Shown: in pieces, positions 2,600-19,660 of the stretch
Layout of the letters: each line of letters starts with the position of its first letter
Numbering within the stretch: position 1 is the stretch's first letter
From: a virus
Virus record (IMG/VR): IMGVR_UViG_3300025132_000405
Coordinates: 1-20,269 of that record
Length of the DNA stretch: 20,269 nt
Strand: one strand, 5' to 3'
Translations under genes and position numbers: made by a program
The notes under the pieces: generated by a model
What the model was told of the DNA's origin: nothing
The model's database searches: none
The model's input: the letters and a program-made list of their open reading frames with translations, nothing else

Positions 2600-4231
2600 T
2601 TATCGTTGTGTTACTGCTTGGATCATTTCCTGAACCATTTCAGGATTTTCACCAGCGTTATCTGCTAATCCTTTTGCCATAGCAGGTGTTGCACCTCTAA
2701 CAACATCTTGCATCATAGCCGCTTGTTGTTGTTGTTGCATCATTTGTTGTTGTTGTTCTTGAGCTTGTTGTGCTTCCATCTGTTTTTGTTCTGGAGTCTT
2801 TATAAGCCCACCTGTGTCAATACCTAATGAAGCACCTAGTCTATCAATGTAGTCATCTAGGTTAAGATTCTGCATAATAGCTTCAGGGCCAAGCGGACCA
2901 AGGTATTGTAGAAATTGAGATAATTTATTAAGATCTTGTCCTCTACCCAAGGCTTCGATACCTGTGACAATTTGTGGTTTAACAGTGTCCTTTGGAAACG
3001 AAGGCATCTTTTTTGCTTTCACAAGTCTTTGAAGTAACAGGTTTACCAATGGTAACTGGAACTCTTGAGACAACACAGAATAGACTCCACCCAAGGCAGA
3101 CTCTAGTTCCTGTGCCATAAATCTAACTTCCTCTGCTGTTACTCTCTCAGCATTACGCTGAACAGAAGAGTTTAGTAGGAAAGCAAATGATAACCTATCT
3201 CTAACTTGTGTGATTGTGTCAAGTGCAATACGAAAGTCTTGACTTTTCTGTAATTGGAGTGTAGAAACATCATTAACATCTCCTTGTACGATTGCTCCAT
3301 TAGGAGACTTAGCAAGTGTATTAATACGAGTGGTGCCATTAGGTCTTACTAGAAATAATACTTTAGATGCAGCCGCAGAGCCTTCTACAATCGCTTGCGT
3401 AAGAGCTTCAAGGGACCGTAGATCTCCCAAATACTCTTCCACGAGACCACGACCATAGGATTCTCCGTCAACTCTACTGAACCTAAGTGGTATAAAGGGG
3501 TTCTTATCTTTGGGGTATTTACCATAACTGTCGGGTATTGGTACACGGCCTATTTCTTGGTGGATGTGCCAGTAAGATCCTTTGTCACAAACGTAGGTAT
3601 ATAATTCGTAAGGTTTTTCAGGAGTTTCGTTACCTGTTTTTTCAGGTGGTGGAAGACCGATGGCTTCTCTTGCTTCTTCTGTGAGCGTTTTGGCATTTAA
3701 ATTTTCTTTTGTAATAACATATAATAAATTACCCATAGGATCACGCTTAACAACATAGCGATCCAAATGAAACACACGCATACCACCCTCATCTGGCATA
3801 TACAAAAGACAGTTACCTGTGACAATCAAATGTTTTATAGCCTCAAACACTGGAACACGTAATGCGAGAGTCTCCACTTCTTGCATGGCAGATCTCTCAA
3901 CCTTAGCTAGTCCTTCTTCTACTGGTCCTCTCTGTTCTGGGCCGACAAGTTGCTCAATATCAAAATCGTCAACTGTCAGTCTAAAGAACGGAGAGTTGGG
4001 AGGTAGTAAAGTAAGGAGTAGTTTGGAAGATAAATGATTTACACCACGTGCACCAATGGATTGAAACGGAGTTTCGTATGTTGTAGAATACGAATCACCT
4101 GAGTCTTTAATTAACGTAGGTATCGTGAGTTTAGCACAGTCACGAGCACGTTGGAGATAGGATTCACGTTCTCCAAAACATGCCTGATACATGCTTGCTA
4201 GTTGACCTTCGGTATACTGATCTCCTGTCAT
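2600..4231 (-). CDS. Portal / head-tail connector protein (T7 gp8-like)
   Basis: This 543-residue protein should form the dodecameric portal at one vertex through which DNA enters and leaves the head. T7 gp8 is 536 residues. Landmarks are the N-terminal ERESYLQRARDCAKLTIPTL (about residues 16-35), FQSIGARGVNHLSSKLLLTLLPP (about 56-78, the conserved portal core) and SAAASKVLFLVRPNG (about 284-298). The C-terminus has a Gln/Met-rich segment (about residues 479-510), likely a coiled coil and encoded by CAA/CAG triplets, as in other T7-like portals. The start overlaps the upstream stop as ATGA, with only a weak GAG upstream, indicating translational coupling. Family and neighbours agree. Confidence 0.94.
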   Translation of the reverse strand: MTGDQYTEGQLASMYQACFGERESYLQRARDCAKLTIPTLIKDSGDSYSTTYETPFQSIGARGVNHLSSKLLLTLLPPNSPFFRLTVDDFDIEQLVGPEQRGPVEEGLAKVERSAMQEVETLALRVPVFEAIKHLIVTGNCLLYMPDEGGMRVFHLDRYVVKRDPMGNLLYVITKENLNAKTLTEEAREAIGLPPPEKTGNETPEKPYELYTYVCDKGSYWHIHQEIGRVPIPDSYGKYPKDKNPFIPLRFSRVDGESYGRGLVEEYLGDLRSLEALTQAIVEGSAAASKVLFLVRPNGTTRINTLAKSPNGAIVQGDVNDVSTLQLQKSQDFRIALDTITQVRDRLSFAFLLNSSVQRNAERVTAEEVRFMAQELESALGGVYSVLSQEFQLPLVNLLLQRLVKAKKMPSFPKDTVKPQIVTGIEALGRGQDLNKLSQFLQYLGPLGPEAIMQNLNLDDYIDRLGASLGIDTGGLIKTPEQKQMEAQQAQEQQQQMMQQQQQAAMMQDVVRGATPAMAKGLADNAGENPEMVQEMIQAVTQR

Positions 4232-8268: not shown

Positions 8269-9048
8269 TCACGCTGTTTCAATGATCTCATCGCTAGGAT
8301 ACCATAGTTTAGGGTACTTGTCAAGTCCTTCGTACTGGTCTTTGCGTAATATATACGCCATACGTGCCTGATCTATGGCGTACTCATGTCCAAACCCAGC
8401 TTTAGCATAGGTTTCTACAACTGCATCCCACATATCCTCATCTTCTTCTATGGCTTTGTCAAGTATACGTTGTGCCTTGACTTTGCCTATGCCTGGACAC
8501 CCCTTGTACCCATCTGTAGAGTCTCCACTAAGAGTCTGCATGTAGAAATTGTAGTCTGCTGTAATCTGATCTATAAAAAAGATCTCTTTCTTATCGAAGT
8601 CCCAATGATAACCTGGAACCGTAAGAAGATCTTTGTCTATTGACACAATGCAACAATGCTCTGGAAACATTGTGTTCTTGACACCCATCAAGTCATCAGC
8701 CTCAAGCCAATTGGATTCAAAGGCATCATACTGTTCACGAAGGTAATCTTTGGCAATGTTAAAGCACACAGGCTTACGAATACCTGAACGATTAGCTTTA
8801 TAATCAGCCAAAATTTTTTTCCTAAAATTATTCGGACTAGAAAAACATATTGACAACTCATCTATACCAGAGTCTTTTCGTAACTGATGTAACTCTGTGT
8901 CCATCATCTGTTTTACTTCTCTGAAGTCAGAGTGCAACGTCCAAAAGTCATTACCCCAATCTATCTCACGTTCAGCCGCAGATGTGTTTTTGTATACCAG
9001 TATATCACCATCAATCAGTAGCTGTTCGATCTTTGGTTTTGTTCTCAT
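8269..9048 (-). CDS. 5'-3' exonuclease (T7 gp6-like, FEN/PIN family)
   Basis: This 259-residue protein should degrade duplex DNA from 5' ends and remove RNA primers, acting in host DNA breakdown, replication and recombination. Acidic metal-binding residues of the FEN/T5-exonuclease family are visible: D13/D15 (LIDGDILVY), E116/D118/D119 (LEADDL), D138/D140 (SIDKDLL) and D176/D179 in [18 protein letters not shown], the latter running into a helix-3-turn-helix DNA-binding motif. The conserved YKANR is at 83-87. T7 gp6 is about 300 residues. The ATG at 9048 lies 41 bases after the polymerase stop and has a weak AAGA upstream. Its position directly after DNA polymerase is as in T7. Confidence 0.94.
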
Positions 9049-10871: not shown

Positions 10872-12505
10872 TAGAAATCTTTTTCAAAAGGAATACTATC
10901 CTCTTCGTCAAAGTCAACTGCACCAGAAACCTCATTGAGTCTGCCAGTTGCTTTGTCATAATCAAGAAAACAACACTCACCTGTCTCACCTGTCCATCGA
11001 TTCTTCAAGATGCGTACTGTAGTACGATCTGGGTATTCACCCTGCTGATCTCTCTCGCATCCAATAACGATGTCAGATAACTGACCAATAGCCGCAGATC
11101 CACGTAGTTGTGCCATAGATGTACGTGCTCCATCCTCGTGGCCTTTGTTGCCTTGTGGTCTCTTCAGATGTGATACCAGTATCATACCACAATTAACCTC
11201 TTCTGTCAAGCCCCGAAGTTTGGTCATCATGTTGTCAATGGCTCTACGTTCATCACCACCTTCCATACCTGAGACTACGATGGATATGTGATCAAGAATG
11301 ATGTAGTTACACCCACAACCTTGGACCATGTAACGGATCTTGTTCAGTAGATTATCAGACTCAAGAGAACCCCAATGATCATACATGTACACACGACCTG
11401 TGTTCAATGTGTGCTCAAAGGCTTCTCTAAACTCTTCCTTTGGTATCTCTGAATCGCCAAGGTGCAATGGTTTGTTCAGGTAAAGACCCATGAAACCAAG
11501 TGCAGTACGCTTGTTGTTCTCTTCCAGAGCAATGTAACCAACGGTTTCGTCCTGTTCAAGCATATAATTAGCAATCTCACGACAAACCTGTGACTTACCA
11601 ATGCCAGAACCTGCGGTTATGGTTACAATCTCACCTCTACGAATGCCAAGAGTCTTGTTGTTGATTCCAGTAAACGGGTACAACACGGATGCCATAGAAT
11701 CTTCAGCAGACACTATGTCCCATAGTTCGGTACCACATATAATACCATCAGGTCTAAAGACCTTTGATTGCCATAGACAACTCACGAGATCCTGTACACG
11801 ATTCTGTACAAGCATATCGTTTGCATCCTTGAGTGGCAACTTTGCTATTCTAGCCTTTCCAGGTGGGAGAATCTGTGCACACTCACGAGATGCCTTGACT
11901 CCTGCCTCATCATTGTCGAAACAGAATACAACCTCTTCGTAGCCATTGAGTAGCTCCAATGACTTACGTACTGCTCGTGCAGCACCTGCGGCCCCAGTTG
12001 GTACGGAATACACAGGCCACTGGTTGCCTTGTGCTTGAGAAATAGACATAGCATCTATCTCCCCTTCGCATACAACTGCTCGTTTTCCAGTGCCTGACCA
12101 CAGGTGCTCACCATACAAACCTATGTCACTCATGTCACCACGGACAGTAAAATCTTTATTGCGAAACCTGATCTTCTGAGCAACTCTAGTACCCACCTGA
12201 TCTTTGTAGTTTGCAATCTGAACTGGCTGTCCACCTAGTTCACCAACTCTGTAATCCCACTTCTTGCAGGTATCTTCGTTGATATTACGTGCAGATAGGT
12301 ACTGATAGGCACCATCCACGAAATCACTATTCATCTGAATTTGTCGTTGTCTTGGTTGATAATTACGTACACCAATATCATCGCCATGCTCACGATAATT
12401 GCACCCGAAACAATATCCATGTCCATCACTGTACCTCGCTAAGTTATCTTTCGACCCACAAGAGGGGCAGGGTTCATGCCTAACAAATGTACTATCTTCT
12501 TCCAT
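10871..12505 (-). CDS. Replicative DNA primase/helicase (T7 gp4-like)
   Basis: This 544-residue bifunctional protein should unwind DNA 5'-3' as a hexamer and make primers. Counting from the ATG at 12505: a zinc-binding primase domain with C13, C16, C32 and C35; a TOPRIM domain with E147 (VVCEGEIDAM) and D197/D199 (FDNDEAG); then the RecA-like helicase with Walker A GSGIGKS (299-305), catalytic E328 (ALEEN), Walker B D405 (IILDHISIV, almost as in T7) and likely arginine finger R503 (KNRWTG). The acidic C-terminus ends in Phe (PFEKDF), as in T7 gp4, where that tail contacts the polymerase. A GTG at 12520 would add five residues; the ATG leaves a 4-base gap to the previous gene. The exact start is uncertain. 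Confidence 0.97.
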   Translation of the reverse strand: MEEDSTFVRHEPCPSCGSKDNLARYSDGHGYCFGCNYREHGDDIGVRNYQPRQRQIQMNSDFVDGAYQYLSARNINEDTCKKWDYRVGELGGQPVQIANYKDQVGTRVAQKIRFRNKDFTVRGDMSDIGLYGEHLWSGTGKRAVVCEGEIDAMSISQAQGNQWPVYSVPTGAAGAARAVRKSLELLNGYEEVVFCFDNDEAGVKASRECAQILPPGKARIAKLPLKDANDMLVQNRVQDLVSCLWQSKVFRPDGIICGTELWDIVSAEDSMASVLYPFTGINNKTLGIRRGEIVTITAGSGIGKSQVCREIANYMLEQDETVGYIALEENNKRTALGFMGLYLNKPLHLGDSEIPKEEFREAFEHTLNTGRVYMYDHWGSLESDNLLNKIRYMVQGCGCNYIILDHISIVVSGMEGGDERRAIDNMMTKLRGLTEEVNCGMILVSHLKRPQGNKGHEDGARTSMAQLRGSAAIGQLSDIVIGCERDQQGEYPDRTTVRILKNRWTGETGECCFLDYDKATGRLNEVSGAVDFDEEDSIPFEKDF

Positions 12506-12842: not shown

Positions 12843-13269
12843 ATAATATCTCTCCGTTTTGTGCCCACCATTTTTTAACTGAGAAGCCTGGGCAATCGGA
12901 CCCAATCAACTCACCATGTCCAACTACTTTAGCACCCTTAAACATAAATGTCAAGGCATTCACCAGAGAAAACAATGCTTCCCATTGGAAGGCACTGAAG
13001 TATGGATCAGCTTGACCATTCTCATCTACACCACCTGCTAAACAAACACCTACGGACTTACCATTATAACCTTTGCAATGTGCACCAACTTCATGTGGGT
13101 TCCTACCCGTTTCTATTGTGCCATCTTGCCTAATGAAATAATGGTATCCAATCCGTAACCAACCTCGTTGTCTATGCCACGAGTCTATGGTTTTGATGTC
13201 AATGTCCATCTTAGGTGGAGTACCAGAAGAATGAATTACAATGTAATCAGTCTGCTTTCTTTTTGACAT
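12817..13269 (-). CDS. N-acetylmuramoyl-L-alanine amidase (T7 gp3.5 lysozyme-like endolysin)
   Basis: This 150-residue zinc amidase should cut the bond between N-acetylmuramic acid and L-alanine in peptidoglycan; in T7 the homologue also binds and inhibits the phage RNA polymerase. Visible features are zinc ligands H13 (VIHSSGT), H118 (VVGHGE) and C126 (SDCPGF), the catalytic tyrosine Y42 in GYHYFIRQDGT, and VGAHCKGYNGKSVGVCLAGG at 61-80. T7 K128, needed for amidase activity there, aligns with S124 here. The length equals T7 lysozyme (151). It overlaps the endonuclease gene upstream by 23 bases and the next gene by 26. No signal peptide is visible, so release needs a holin, not identified in this window. 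Confidence 0.95.
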   Translation of the reverse strand: MSKRKQTDYIVIHSSGTPPKMDIDIKTIDSWHRQRGWLRIGYHYFIRQDGTIETGRNPHEVGAHCKGYNGKSVGVCLAGGVDENGQADPYFSAFQWEALFSLVNALTFMFKGAKVVGHGELIGSDCPGFSVKKWWAQNGEILYGKTGYRT

Positions 13270-14302: not shown

Positions 14303-16738
14303 TTATGAAAAGAAATATTTAGACTCATTAACACCATGAACATTTAGTTCACCTAAAGGTGGTGGATCGTCAAGATCAGGCAACACATCCCTTAGTGTGT
14401 CGTGTAGTCCATTCAGTACATCTGAGTCTGCATACATGCTTACAAATGATTTACGTATTGCATGAGCCATCGCAGGTACAAAGTTCGCATGTACTCCATA
14501 CGAGTCATGAACAACTGCATAATCATTTATACCCTGTAGTATACATTCGTTAATAGTCAATGTCAAGGCAGAAGCATCCATACTGTGAACAAAATTAGGA
14601 CTAACCCCATTGGTTGACCTTCTTTTGTCTATGTTATCCGATTCTTCAAGAACCGAAGGTTTAATTAGCACATTATCTATGTGCGTATGCACACGTTGAC
14701 CACGCATACTCTTATATGCTTGATTCACAACGAACTTTGATGGTGTTTCCCATGTTATAGGGAGATTCTTGTCAGACATTTTCCGACCTATGTCACGCAA
14801 CCATGCCATTGCTTCTCTAGCACAAACCACTACTTCACCTATTGCATCCCATACGTGTGCTGATAGGTACATAGATGCCTCATAGACATCTTCACCAAAT
14901 GGATTTGCACCACCATTCAGTATCCTATCATTCATGGCTTCTTCAACATACTCACGACACGAGTATCGTGTTCCACCATAGGGTACCACCATGACTGGAC
15001 GTTTGGTTATCTTCCGATCAATTCCGAAGTCAAGCCATGCTTGTGCATGATTTACACCAAGTGTAGCATCCTCTTTCACCTTTGTCAAGACAACATTTGC
15101 TACCATTTGGTAGATGTCCTGTGGTAACTCTTCTGGTGTAAGGTTTGTTGCCTTACCACCCACAGGATCACGGAGCATAGCTGAAAAATGCTGAAGTCCA
15201 TTATTCGACCCATCCAGACACACTGGTATCTGTGACATATAGCCGAGACCTTCAGACACAAAATCAGCCCACTCAAAAGCCCATGCAAGAAAAGACCAAG
15301 GTTCATCTGCTTGTGTCCACCAACGATAGTCAAGAGGTGACTTAGCCGATGCACATATTTCGCTTGAATGGTCATATACCCAATTCACTCGATCTTTAAA
15401 TGAAACCTTGTCATAGCCAAAGCAATTAGCACCATGCACAGCAAAATATTCTTCCTGCTCATGGTTATTGATTGGCATTTTATTTGCAAAGTGCAACAAA
15501 GATTTTGCATAGTCTGGACCTTGTGGTGTAAGAAACGAGTTTACTGTATATTTACGTCCACGAAAGTCACATTGATATACGAAATAGATAGCAGGATAGT
15601 CTTTAAATTTGTCTGCCATAGCTAATGTTCTAGCCAGTTGTATCCTCTTGGATGTAACCTTGGCATTCAAATCATGTACTACTGTAGCTTTCTTTTTCCA
15701 TTTTATCAACTGGTCAAGCTCATGGTCATTCAACTCACTACGCTTTCCCTTGACAGGACTAGGCAATATCTTGTAATCCTCACGTGGAGGCAAGTTAGCC
15801 CACGATTCACCTGTTTCCCAACAGTTTTTTATTGTCTCAAGTACACGTTGGTTTACTTTCCATTGTGTACGTTGCAATGCGTTGATAGCACCATACTCTA
15901 GTGGCATAGGATGATAACGCATCTCATCAAGATAACCACGATTCCTGGTTTTAATCATGGGAATCGAGTTGATTCTCGATGTGTGGTACCCACCATTGTA
16001 CATATCACTCCAGTCTTTTGGAGGTATGACACATGGATAAAAGTAAGGGTGTATAGTTTCACCCTCATTGTTAAGTTGTTCTATCCAATGTAGTGTAGCA
16101 TCATTGGCTTGAAGATACAAGACCCTTTTCTTACGCTTGTATTGGACAGTCTTGACTTCCATCAGACCAGTAGTCTGCACGAGAATGTCAATCAACTTAC
16201 ACCCAAGGTGTACCTTTTCAACTTTAGTCCAAGGTTCATGATCCAACATTTCAACCTTGGTCATCTGTCTAATCAGATTGTACCTTCGGTAGACCCGATT
16301 AGTGGTCTTTTTGTTTACTCGATCTTTAATAATTCTGAATAAACGACCAGTATCATCTGAATTTGACCATAAGTCAAACTTAAATTGATCCTCTAGTCCA
16401 TTTGCTAGTTTCATTGCTGTTCTAGTTAATGGACTACGGGCCGACACACCATCTATTGTGTACTTCAGTGTCAGGTAAGCACACACTTCAGGGTCCAGTA
16501 ACATTAGAATGTTAGCTGATGTCTGATTCGGACCAACACGACCAGTCAAGGCTTCTGTGAGGTACTCATCAATACCATTGCGTACAACATCCAATGCTTC
16601 CTTCATGAGTGTAACACCGTAAAGTGTTACAGACTCACGACCCTTTAACTTAGCATCACGAATATTCTTTTGGTATCTTTCGACACCAAGTCCGTTCATT
16701 TCGGACTCTATTTTCTCCTGCTCAAGTTTTAAATTCAA
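14303..16738 (-). CDS. Single-subunit DNA-directed RNA polymerase (T7 gp1-like)
   Basis: This 811-residue enzyme should transcribe the middle and late phage genes from phage-specific promoters. Catalytic residues line up with T7: D509 (CLDGSNNGLQHFSAMLRD; T7 D537), R575 and K579 (RKITKRPVM; R627, K631), Y587 (VVPYGG; Y639) and D745 (VVHDSYG; D812). DFRGRKY is at 391-397 and SPNFVHSMDA at 713-722. The T7 enzyme is 883 residues, and the shortfall is largest in the N-terminal domain. The only start upstream of ATG 16699 is TTG at 16738, overlapping the previous stop as TTGA; residues 5-14 (LEQEKIESEM) parallel T7 LALEHESYEM, so I favour the TTG. The specificity loop (about 660-695) differs from T7, fitting the lack of T7-consensus promoters. 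Confidence 0.96.
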   Translation of the reverse strand: MNLKLEQEKIESEMNGLGVERYQKNIRDAKLKGRESVTLYGVTLMKEALDVVRNGIDEYLTEALTGRVGPNQTSANILMLLDPEVCAYLTLKYTIDGVSARSPLTRTAMKLANGLEDQFKFDLWSNSDDTGRLFRIIKDRVNKKTTNRVYRRYNLIRQMTKVEMLDHEPWTKVEKVHLGCKLIDILVQTTGLMEVKTVQYKRKKRVLYLQANDATLHWIEQLNNEGETIHPYFYPCVIPPKDWSDMYNGGYHTSRINSIPMIKTRNRGYLDEMRYHPMPLEYGAINALQRTQWKVNQRVLETIKNCWETGESWANLPPREDYKILPSPVKGKRSELNDHELDQLIKWKKKATVVHDLNAKVTSKRIQLARTLAMADKFKDYPAIYFVYQCDFRGRKYTVNSFLTPQGPDYAKSLLHFANKMPINNHEQEEYFAVHGANCFGYDKVSFKDRVNWVYDHSSEICASAKSPLDYRWWTQADEPWSFLAWAFEWADFVSEGLGYMSQIPVCLDGSNNGLQHFSAMLRDPVGGKATNLTPEELPQDIYQMVANVVLTKVKEDATLGVNHAQAWLDFGIDRKITKRPVMVVPYGGTRYSCREYVEEAMNDRILNGGANPFGEDVYEASMYLSAHVWDAIGEVVVCAREAMAWLRDIGRKMSDKNLPITWETPSKFVVNQAYKSMRGQRVHTHIDNVLIKPSVLEESDNIDKRRSTNGVSPNFVHSMDASALTLTINECILQGINDYAVVHDSYGVHANFVPAMAHAIRKSFVSMYADSDVLNGLHDTLRDVLPDLDDPPPLGELNVHGVNESKYFFS

Positions 16739-17013
16739 TTAAGTTGGTTTTTGGGTACCTTTGAATCCACAAGAGACTCAAAGTTGTGCTCAATCAACTG
16801 CATACTCCACTCTATGAAGTTGAGACCAGTTGCAATACGTTCATCAGCGTCTAAAGATTTATCACGTAGTGCAGTATCGACCATCATGATCGTTTTTCCC
16901 ATTATACGCTGAGATTCCTGGTCAAGATCTGTTATTTCCTGTTCCGACAATCCGTACTTTGTACGCAGGTCATCTCTGGTTATATGTGCCATTTGGCTCA
17001 GGTTCATCGTCAT
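16735..17013 (-). CDS. Small helical protein before RNA polymerase
   Basis: A 92-residue protein of unknown function. It starts MTMNLSQMAHITRDDLRTKYG and is predicted mostly helical, with LSEQEITDLDQESQRIMGKT and FIEWSMQLIEHNFESLVDS, and no Cys cluster or known motif. Several in-frame Met codons exist (17049, 17028, 17013, 17007, 16992); I choose 17013 because GGAG lies nine bases upstream. It overlaps the upstream gene and its stop overlaps the polymerase TTG start as TTGA, so its translation probably drives that of the polymerase. Confidence 0.7.
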   Translation of the reverse strand: MTMNLSQMAHITRDDLRTKYGLSEQEITDLDQESQRIMGKTIMMVDTALRDKSLDADERIATGLNFIEWSMQLIEHNFESLVDSKVPKNQLN

Positions 17014-17134
17014 CTTCTGTCTCTCCATCATCACACACATTACGGTCAAAGGACATGCCTTTGTACTTGACCTTGCGTGTATAGTCAGTCTTTACCTTGT
17101 GGGCTTGTGAGCCTCGGTTTTTGATACCTTTCAT
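16970..17134 (-). CDS. Small basic-to-acidic protein, unknown
   Basis: A 54-residue protein with a basic first half (MKGIKNRGSQAHKVKTDYTR) and an acidic second half (DDGETEDDDEPEPNG). Not recognised. The ATG at 17134 has AAGG seven bases upstream; an ATG at 17161 would add nine residues but has no ribosome site. It overlaps the membrane protein gene upstream and the next gene downstream. The charge split and ribosome site favour a real gene, but the overlaps leave doubt. Confidence 0.55.
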   Translation of the reverse strand: MKGIKNRGSQAHKVKTDYTRKVKYKGMSFDRNVCDDGETEDDDEPEPNGTYNQR

Positions 17135-17303
17135 GATTTGACCTTTTGAGATAAAGTTCATGCTTTAGCATTATAGTATCAATCTTTGATTGCATGACTC
17201 GTGCTTCCCACACTAGAGTCTGTACTGCTAGAGCACCGTATACCAATAATGGAACAACTACTATAACATTCAAAGAAACAATTGTCAAGATTATTTTTTG
17301 CAT
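17085..17303 (-). CDS. Small single-span membrane protein starting at the tRNA-Trp 3' end
   Basis: A 72-residue protein with one strongly hydrophobic stretch at about residues 4-31 (IILTIVSLNVIVVVPLLVYG, then ALAVQTLVW) followed by a charged, mostly basic tail (KHELYLKRSNHERYQKPR). This fits an inner-membrane protein with its tail in the cytoplasm, or a small holin-like or host-interaction protein; nothing decides between these. The ATG at 17303 uses the terminal A of the tRNA-Trp CCA as its first base, and its ribosome site, GAGG, is the 3' strand of the tRNA acceptor stem. It overlaps the next gene by about 50 bases, where its sequence may be less constrained. Confidence 0.65.
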   Translation of the reverse strand: MQKIILTIVSLNVIVVVPLLVYGALAVQTLVWEARVMQSKIDTIMLKHELYLKRSNHERYQKPRLTSPQGKD

Positions 17304-17376
17304 GGCACCTCATATAAGAATCGAACTCATGTCTACTGGTTTGGAATCAGTTATGTTACCACTACACCAATGAGGT
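17303..17376 (-). tRNA. tRNA-Trp (anticodon CCA)
   Basis: The minus strand folds into a full 74-base cloverleaf with encoded CCA: acceptor ACCTCAT/ATGAGGT (7 bp), D arm GTGT-AGTGGTA-ACAT, anticodon arm ACTGA-TTCCAAA-CCAGT, variable loop AGAC and T arm ATGAG-TTCGATT-CTTAT. The anticodon at 34-36 is CCA. A1-U72 and discriminator G73 are the bacterial tryptophan identity bases. The anticodon stem has an A31-C39 mismatch at its last pair. The D loop GG and the T loop C56 are kept, so the elbow should be normal. The final A is shared with the start codon of the next gene. Confidence 0.9.
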
Positions 17377-17379
17377 GTG

Positions 17380-17418
17380 TATAGCACACCACCCTCCCTC
17401 CGCCGTAGGTGTACTATA
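17380..17418 (-). promoter_or_regulatory. Strong hairpin between the two tRNA genes
   Basis: An 11-bp inverted repeat (minus strand TATAGTACACC at 17418-17408 with GGTGTGCTATA at 17390-17380; one G-T pair) encloses a 17-base loop that is rich in purines on the minus strand (GGCGGAGGGAGGG). It fills almost the whole 45-base tRNA spacer. Likely use is as a processing site for the tRNA precursor (double-strand cutting as by RNase III) or as a stabiliser. It has no T-run, so it is not an ordinary terminator. Confidence 0.6.
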
Positions 17419-17421
17419 TTC

Positions 17422-17507
17422 TGGTGGGTGAGGTAGGATTTTAACCTACATGTGTGTGCACACGCCTGATTTACAGTCAGGTTCCTTTTACATTTGGATA
17501 CTCACCC
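17422..17507 (-). tRNA. tRNA-Tyr (anticodon GTA), unusual elbow
   Basis: An 86-base class II tRNA with encoded CCA: acceptor GGGTGAG/CTCACCC (7 bp, perfect), D arm TCC-AAATGTAAAA-GGA, anticodon arm CCTGA-CTGTAAA-TCAGG (perfect) with anticodon GTA, a 15-base variable arm able to pair GTGTG with CACAC, T arm GTAGG-TTAAAAT-CCTAC, discriminator A. The long variable arm and GTA anticodon fit bacterial tRNA-Tyr. The D loop has GT where GG (18-19) is expected and the T loop has A for C56, so the 19-56 pair would be U-A instead of G-C. It begins six bases after the stop codon of the 55-residue gene. Confidence 0.88.
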
Positions 17508-18507: not shown

Positions 18508-18728
18508 TCTGTAACAATCTCCACTTCAGTTATGGTACTCGTGACATACGCCAACTCTGCATGGTCTTTATGTACGACACGAAATTCTGCACCTTTTGTA
18601 TCTATAACCATTCTACGAATGGCGTTCATTAGGTGCTGATCATTCATAGCTTCTATGTCTATGAACTTGTTTTTTGATTTACTCAGGTACTCAATACGTG
18701 GTTTCGGTTTTTTCTTTAAGTCTACCAT
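18504..18728 (-). CDS. Small protein, 74 residues, unknown
   Basis: It begins with a basic stretch (MVDLKKKPKPRIEYLSKSKN), continues with IDIEAMNDQHLMNAIRRM (about residues 23-40) and ends with two strands (FRVVHKDHAELAYVTS and EVEIVTE). The phrase of a Met, a His-Leu and NAIRR is similar to one I recall from many short phage proteins that carry it alone; the function is unknown. The ATG at 18728 has GGAG seven bases upstream. It is followed by an ATGA overlap with the next gene. Confidence 0.78.
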   Translation of the reverse strand: MVDLKKKPKPRIEYLSKSKNKFIDIEAMNDQHLMNAIRRMVIDTKGAEFRVVHKDHAELAYVTSTITEVEIVTE

Positions 18729-18729
18729 T

Positions 18730-18954
18730 CTACATCTCCATTGTCAAGTCGTTAAAATCACATTCGATCCAAACTCGTGCACCACATGACAAAGGTTTGT
18801 CGGGTGAGTACACAACCTTGGAAGGACCATTAATCTCTACTTCGTAGCAATAATGGTTAGCCTTGTACGTTTTTACTGTCAGAGGCGGATGATTTCTATC
18901 CTCTTTTTTGTTTGCACGTATTACGTGCTGATTCACGTGGATTTGTGCTTTCAT
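18730..18954 (-). CDS. Conserved small phage protein, 74 residues
   Basis: It starts MKAQIHVNQHVIRANKKEDR and holds YEVEINGPSKVVYSPDKPLS followed by CGARVWIEC. I recall this INQHVIRANxK ... GPSxVVYSPDKPLSCGARVWIE arrangement from a small family in many phages; no function is known to me. The ATG at 18954 comes one base after the previous stop (TAG-G-ATG) and has GGAG upstream; the TTG at 18972 would overlap the upstream gene and is not needed. Mostly beta, no membrane segment. Confidence 0.82.
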   Translation of the reverse strand: MKAQIHVNQHVIRANKKEDRNHPPLTVKTYKANHYCYEVEINGPSKVVYSPDKPLSCGARVWIECDFNDLTMEM

Positions 18955-19483: not shown

Positions 19484-19660
19484 CTAATAGTTTACGTACC
19501 AAGTGAGCCAATCGTGGTGCTCAATTTTTACTCTATTATAACAGGTTTTACTACAAGTGTCAACTGTTCCTTTGCGAGTGTTAAAGAACCTTGAGACATC
19601 ATGGTGATCGATATCACCATCATCTGGATGAAACACTCGCTTGCAAAAGGTGCAGATCAT
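19484..19660 (-). CDS. Small CxxC...CxxxC protein, possible zinc binder
   Basis: A 58-residue protein starting MICTFCKRVFHPDDGDIDHH. C3 and C6 at the N-terminus and C36 and C40 (DTCSKTC) could bind one zinc; the DIDHH segment at 16-20 gives extra metal-type residues. The layout faintly recalls compact HNH or treble-clef folds but no family is recognised. The ATG at 19660 overlaps the previous stop as ATGA, the reason to prefer it over the TTG at 19714. Role unknown; DNA binding is only a guess. Confidence 0.7.
   Translation of the reverse strand: MICTFCKRVFHPDDGDIDHHDVSRFFNTRKGTVDTCSKTCYNRVKIEHHDWLTWYVNY

Follow-up and report, generated by a model that had tools for sequence, protein, structure and literature searches.

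In the viral DNA described here, a gene for a small membrane protein has its only strong Shine-Dalgarno (SD) sequence within the tRNA-Trp gene that precedes it, an arrangement shared by all eight of the loci that carry this tRNA-Trp. We consider it reasonably probable, from the anatomy of these sequences, that the junction uses the 3' strand of the tRNA acceptor stem as the ribosome-binding site of the downstream gene, and that tRNA maturation and translation compete for each RNA molecule as a consequence of genome compaction. The eight loci share ancestry, and for this reason they do not amount to eight independent events.

The tRNA-Trp gene and the start of the membrane-protein gene

The window, by which we mean the whole stretch of DNA analysed, is a viral record of 20,269 bases in which all recognisable genes lie on the minus strand. 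By inspection of their translations these genes could be named as those for capsid, portal, ribonucleotide reductase, DNA polymerase, helicase, lysis amidase, endonuclease, single-strand binding protein and a T7-like RNA polymerase. The RNA polymerase gene (14303..16738, minus strand; phrog_414, E 1e-245; exact start uncertain) is preceded by an ORF of 85 amino acids (16735..16992, minus strand) and by a small ORF (MKGIKNRGSQ..., 16970..17134, minus strand) that shares 50 nt with the membrane-protein ORF, both of these being kept in relatives; a tRNA-Tyr gene (17422..17507, minus strand, detected by ARAGORN) lies upstream of the tRNA-Trp gene. The RNA polymerase shares no more than about 40% identity with those of named phages, the nearest being that of Rhizobium phage Pasto, and roseophages and pelagiphages are also among the listed matches. 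From these polymerase relatives we would guess that the host is an alphaproteobacterium. The phages that have the tRNA-Trp/membrane-gene junction are a group of marine T7-like phages.

The tRNA-Trp gene, as delimited by ARAGORN (17303..17376, minus strand), has the anticodon CCA and an encoded CCA end, and its sequence has what is expected of a functional tRNA-Trp, including the cloverleaf, A1-U72 and G73 in addition to the anticodon and the CCA end. For the tRNA taken by itself, the computed minimum fold differs from the cloverleaf. In the predicted acceptor stem the 3' strand ATGAGGT (17307..17313, minus strand) is partnered by ACCTCAT (17370-17376), and the pairs C2-G71 and C3-G70 are inverted relative to the G2-C71 and G3-C70 that are common in bacterial tRNA-Trp. 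The purine share of tRNA-Trp acceptor 3' strands is 0.44 for viruses as compared to 0.23 for bacteria, and among tRNA-Trp-motif hits this strand contains GAGGT in 1 of 71 from viruses and 0 of 76 from bacteria. Given the wide variation among viral tRNA-Trp acceptors, these values are at most suggestive of an acceptor stem that evolved under pressure for an SD sequence. We also noted that GGTGTGCTATACACACC, at window positions 17374-17390, is a small perfect hairpin that takes in the first three bases of tRNA-Trp and is absent from most relatives.

At the junction the minus strand reads TATATGAGGTGCCATGCAAAAAATAATC, i.e. ...TTATATGAGGTGCCATGCAAAAAATAATC, such that the terminal A of the tRNA-Trp CCA (17303) is the first base of an ATG (17303-17301) and one base is common to the tRNA and the coding sequence. 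The ORF that begins here (17085..17303, minus strand) is predicted to encode a single-pass membrane protein of 72 amino acids, and it can have no earlier start because an in-frame TGA (17312-17310) lies within tRNA-Trp. The predicted SD sequence, GAGGTG (17306..17311, minus strand), is made up of acceptor 3' strand and discriminator base G73, and its GAGG lies 4 nt from the ATG; the calculated duplex with the 16S tail (-8.9 kcal/mol) ranks second strongest among the 22 window starts examined. A preliminary description of this DNA had drawn attention both to the shared base and to an acceptor-stem GAGG at SD distance, and on these points the ARAGORN and ORF coordinates, the spacing and the duplex energy bear it out. 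Other genes of the phage start without any strong SD sequence (22 starts examined), and GAGGTG may for that reason not be needed for translation of the membrane-protein ORF. Opening of the ribosome site would cost a calculated 2.3-5.8 kcal/mol, depending on leader length, which is less than the ~9 kcal/mol to be gained from pairing with the anti-SD sequence; the opening costs and the duplex energies leave out tRNA tertiary structure and modification.

Conservation of the gene and of its junction

A polymerase scan yielded 40 related contigs, and homologues of the membrane protein were found at 12 loci, ten of them clear (the window included) and located upstream of the polymerase gene and two of them distant, with identities to the window protein of 27-96%. 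In codons 19-57, which exclude the promoter-like motif discussed below and the stretch shared with the next gene, pS exceeded pN in all ten representative pairs compared (e.g. 0.54 vs 0.32 and 0.16 vs 0.04). Frame 0 is free of stops at 10/10 loci, and the other frames carry 4-11 stops. As judged from these comparisons the membrane-protein gene is real and conserved, a point that the preliminary description had left as a proviso. Its conservation is documented through IMG/VR contigs, since neither the membrane protein nor the product of the next ORF downstream has a homologue in annotated phages. The membrane protein matched no Pfam family and gave weak matches to PHROGs.

The eight loci with this tRNA-Trp are the window and those on the contigs designated L001, L002, L005, L006, L007, L008 and L033. 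The tRNA-Trp sequence is near-invariant among them, with differences confined to loop or variable-region positions, and the distance from the A of CCA to the A of ATG is 0 in the window, L007 and L033, +2 in L005 and L006, +3 in L001 and +4 in L002 and L008. In the nearest relative, whose RNA polymerase is 98% identical to that of the window, the ATG is 3 nt farther along and the junction reads CCAGGATG. In all eight loci the start codon is 0-4 nt from CCA, a spacing that is kept despite indels, and no SD sequence other than that of the acceptor stem is available; the GAGG-to-ATG spacing ranges from 4 to 8 nt. Calculated duplexes with the 16S tail lie between -8.9 and -9.3 kcal/mol in these loci, as compared to -3.8 to -4.8 kcal/mol where tRNA-Trp is not adjacent. 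Where tRNA-Trp is missing or displaced (L003, L004, L010/L011 and the displaced gene of L007/L033), the gene is set off by a spacer of its own, and its AGG-type site is weaker. The placement of the putative ribosome site in the acceptor stem, as originally proposed for the window, thus extends to every relative that has this tRNA-Trp.

In L007 and L033 a different membrane ORF of 84 codons (L007:891-1145; L033:5173-5427) is inserted between tRNA-Trp and the gene. It starts on the A of CCA, its first codons contain a TTGACA promoter-like motif separate from that of the gene, and no relative of it was found beyond these two contigs. The one-base overlap of tRNA and coding sequence is not conserved among relatives, and with offsets of 0, +2, +3 and +4 on record we read the exact overlap as incidental, one of several tolerated spacings. 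The preliminary description had looked to close relatives for retention of the ATG and its frame beside tRNA-Trp. What they retain is an open frame 0 and a start within 0-4 nt of CCA; the exact overlap is absent from some, and in L007 and L033 the junction has been taken over by a different ORF.

Start codons beside other viral tRNAs

As a background we used 538 viral CCA-tRNAs, the sole criterion in choosing their contigs being a tRNA-Trp motif. An ATG was present at offset 0 in 10 of these and at offsets 0-4 in 55, an SD-like acceptor in 61 and both features in 3, none of which had an ORF of at least 60 codons as well. An adjacent ATG, an SD-like acceptor and an ORF are thus seldom combined, whereas CCATG by itself is not uncommon. 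In a sample selected for CCATG, ORFs of at least 40 codons were in frame in 16/77 cases, compared to 11/78 and 16/78 for the other frames; there being no in-frame excess, we reject the CCATG overlap as a general feature and ascribe most such overlaps to chance.

A larger set consisted of 1,423 unique viral CCA-tRNAs from outside the window's clade, partly selected for GAGG and ATG (frame and ORF length played no part in the selection), with near-duplicate genes incompletely removed. When the acceptor was SD-like and an ATG lay 5-10 nt past CCA, an ORF of at least 60 codons occurred in frame in 10/37 cases and in neither of the other frames (0/37 and 0/37). For acceptors that are not SD-like the corresponding count was 18/161 in frame, against 6 and 7 in the other frames, and the two classes differ with p = 0.019 for 60 codons and p = 0.004 for 80. 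These counts strongly indicate an in-frame enrichment of ORFs that start 5-10 nt after a tRNA with an SD-like acceptor. In the 0-4 nt class, to which the window junction belongs, there was no significant excess (7/42 in frame vs 4 and 4).

SD-bearing junctions precede thyX after tRNA-Thr (L441, ATG at 3233, minus strand), a 2OG-oxygenase gene after tRNA-Ile (L460, ATG at 8272, minus strand, offset +2, junction GAGGTACCACATG) and a nucleotidyltransferase gene after tRNA-Trp (L253). For the thyX-like and 2OG-oxygenase genes of L441, L415:5370 and L460 the preceding tRNA, a tRNA-Thr or tRNA-Ile, has the best SD sequence in its acceptor stem. At L092:12379 the ATG of a dNMP kinase gene (phrog_139, E 7e-49, aligned from residue 1) takes its A from the CCA of a tRNA-Thr whose acceptor is not SD-like. 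A junction-level blastn search of annotated phages with L092, L441 and L460 did not recover any of these junctions from a named phage, and the open-access literature, to which our search was confined, yielded no description of an SD sequence inside a phage tRNA.

It seems to us distinctly unlikely that phages use acceptor stems as ribosome-binding sites of the genes that follow in such a way that tRNA folding and processing compete with translation of the gene and its protein output is coupled to tRNA maturation or damage. Were acceptor stems to serve in this way, phage tRNA genes would have a second role, in cis, that escapes gene calling and tRNA annotation alike, tRNA maturation would compete directly with translation on the same RNA, and phage tRNA arrays could alter the output of neighbours such as thyX.

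Two proposed fates for one transcript, and other readings of the junction

Several known systems resemble the junction in part. The polycistronic transcripts of mitochondria are punctuated by tRNAs, and there as in the window a tRNA abuts or overlaps a coding start and its excision would set mRNA ends; in the window, however, the SD sequence is inside the tRNA, and excision would destroy the AUG and create no leaderless mRNA. The thrU-tufB operon of E. coli is a bacterial tRNA-mRNA cotranscript and so resembles the single primary transcript that we infer for the window, but a long spacer separates the tRNA from the tufB ribosome site, so that a single molecule can yield both, whereas the ribosome site of the window lies inside the tRNA. 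SD-sequestering hairpins likewise enclose the ribosome site in a stem, and translation depends on how stable that stem is; the stem of the window differs in being a functional-looking tRNA acceptor stem. In the yjdF riboswitch and in cis-tRNA leaders a tRNA or tRNA-like fold directly before the start codon affects translation there, but the SD sequence follows the fold and no tRNA is matured (PMC9142559), in contrast to the SD sequence inside the tRNA gene of the window. A conserved alternative fold of the yjdF type, by which the SD sequence would be hidden or exposed, was not found at the junction, where pairing with the leader is not conserved.

The gene order and motifs suggest that early host-type promoters upstream would give rise to one RNA carrying tRNA-Tyr, tRNA-Trp and the membrane-protein ORF. 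On some molecules the acceptor stem would fold and the RNA would be trimmed at CCA to a tRNA, with destruction of the ribosome site and loss of the ORF; on others a 30S subunit might capture GAGGUG before stem closure or 3' trimming, and the ORF would be translated. Both fates probably draw stochastically on a single transcript pool with translation remaining low, and the arrangement is most likely a matter of genome compaction and not a sensor. Maturation strips away the SD sequence, and in the window it takes the A of the ATG as well, so that by the SD route a single molecule can probably serve as tRNA or as message but not as both. Exclusivity per molecule would then probably hold for the SD route in all eight loci and, in the window, for any route from this ATG. 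The preliminary description, which had maturation and translation mutually exclusive and the cut at CCA removing ribosome site and start codon together, is upheld to this extent; in the relatives with offsets of +2 to +4 a cut at CCA would take the GAGGTG but spare the AUG with a leader of 1-3 nt. The folded tRNA may block translation almost completely. It need not be purely inhibitory, because tRNAs placed upstream of an ORF, before an SD sequence, raised in vitro translation 2- to 6.3-fold (PMC9142559).

Those same relatives (L001, L002, L005, L006 and L008, with the AUG 2-4 nt past the A of CCA) would permit punctuation of the transcript by the tRNA in the mitochondrial manner, in which an mRNA starting 1-3 nt before the AUG after a cut at CCA is translated leaderless or nearly so. 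In the window, L007 and L033, however, the cut takes the A of the AUG and would leave no translatable mRNA; punctuation would also make the strong GAGGTG irrelevant, and genes that lack a neighbouring tRNA-Trp carry their own AGG-type sites. We therefore regard it as very unlikely. It is rather unlikely that the adjacency is one of chance, with a real gene expressed weakly or independently of an SD sequence and GAGGTG a mere piece of tRNA with no part in translation. The many window genes without a strong SD sequence and the generally accidental nature of CCATG overlaps would fit such an account, but the spacing has been held to 0-4 nt through indels, a replacing ORF occupies the same site in L007 and L033, acceptor GAGGT is rare, and acceptors with an SD sequence are over-represented 5-10 nt ahead of real ORFs.

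That the folding, charging, cleavage or processing state of the tRNA in infection decides membrane-protein synthesis, as in a regulated switch, appears highly improbable, even though the anatomy of the junction sets the two fates in competition and both the stimulation by upstream tRNAs and the translational control by a tRNA-like fold in yjdF (PMC9142559) offer precedents. No alternative structure is conserved, the pairing of the 5' leader with the tRNA that is seen in the window being absent from L002, L006, L007 and L033, and a conserved internal promoter would bypass the junction for the downstream genes. Refolding driven by the leader through GGTGTGCTATACACACC was considered and set aside, its pairing not being conserved among relatives.

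The candidate internal promoter is a sigma-70-like extended -10 sequence, TTGACA-N17-TATAGT with TG (17260..17288, minus strand), that has 11/12 consensus matches and spans codons 6-15 of the membrane-protein ORF. Its position is kept in 12/12 homologous loci, with TTGACA exact in 11 and the spacing of 17 and the TG in 12, and the invariant N-terminal residues Leu-Thr of the membrane protein correspond to the codons TTG ACA of the motif. On the simplest reading it would, by starting separate mRNAs, probably let the downstream RNA polymerase genes bypass the tRNA junction, which weakens the case for gating of polymerase synthesis by tRNA folding and makes gating of the polymerase gene through translational coupling unlikely. 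The window contains a family of such sites (TTGACA-N14-TGNTANNNT), of which 7 are exact; the count is 10 when one mismatch is allowed, and all lie on the gene strand, for the most part in coding sequence, whereas shuffled sequences had a mean of 0.91 sites with at most one mismatch and none of 100 shuffles reached 10. Besides the site at 17260-17288, members of the family are at 8296-8324, 11181-11209, 12926-12954, 15060-15088, 18719-18747 and 19535-19563. In several relatives exact promoter-like sites recur downstream of the polymerase start.
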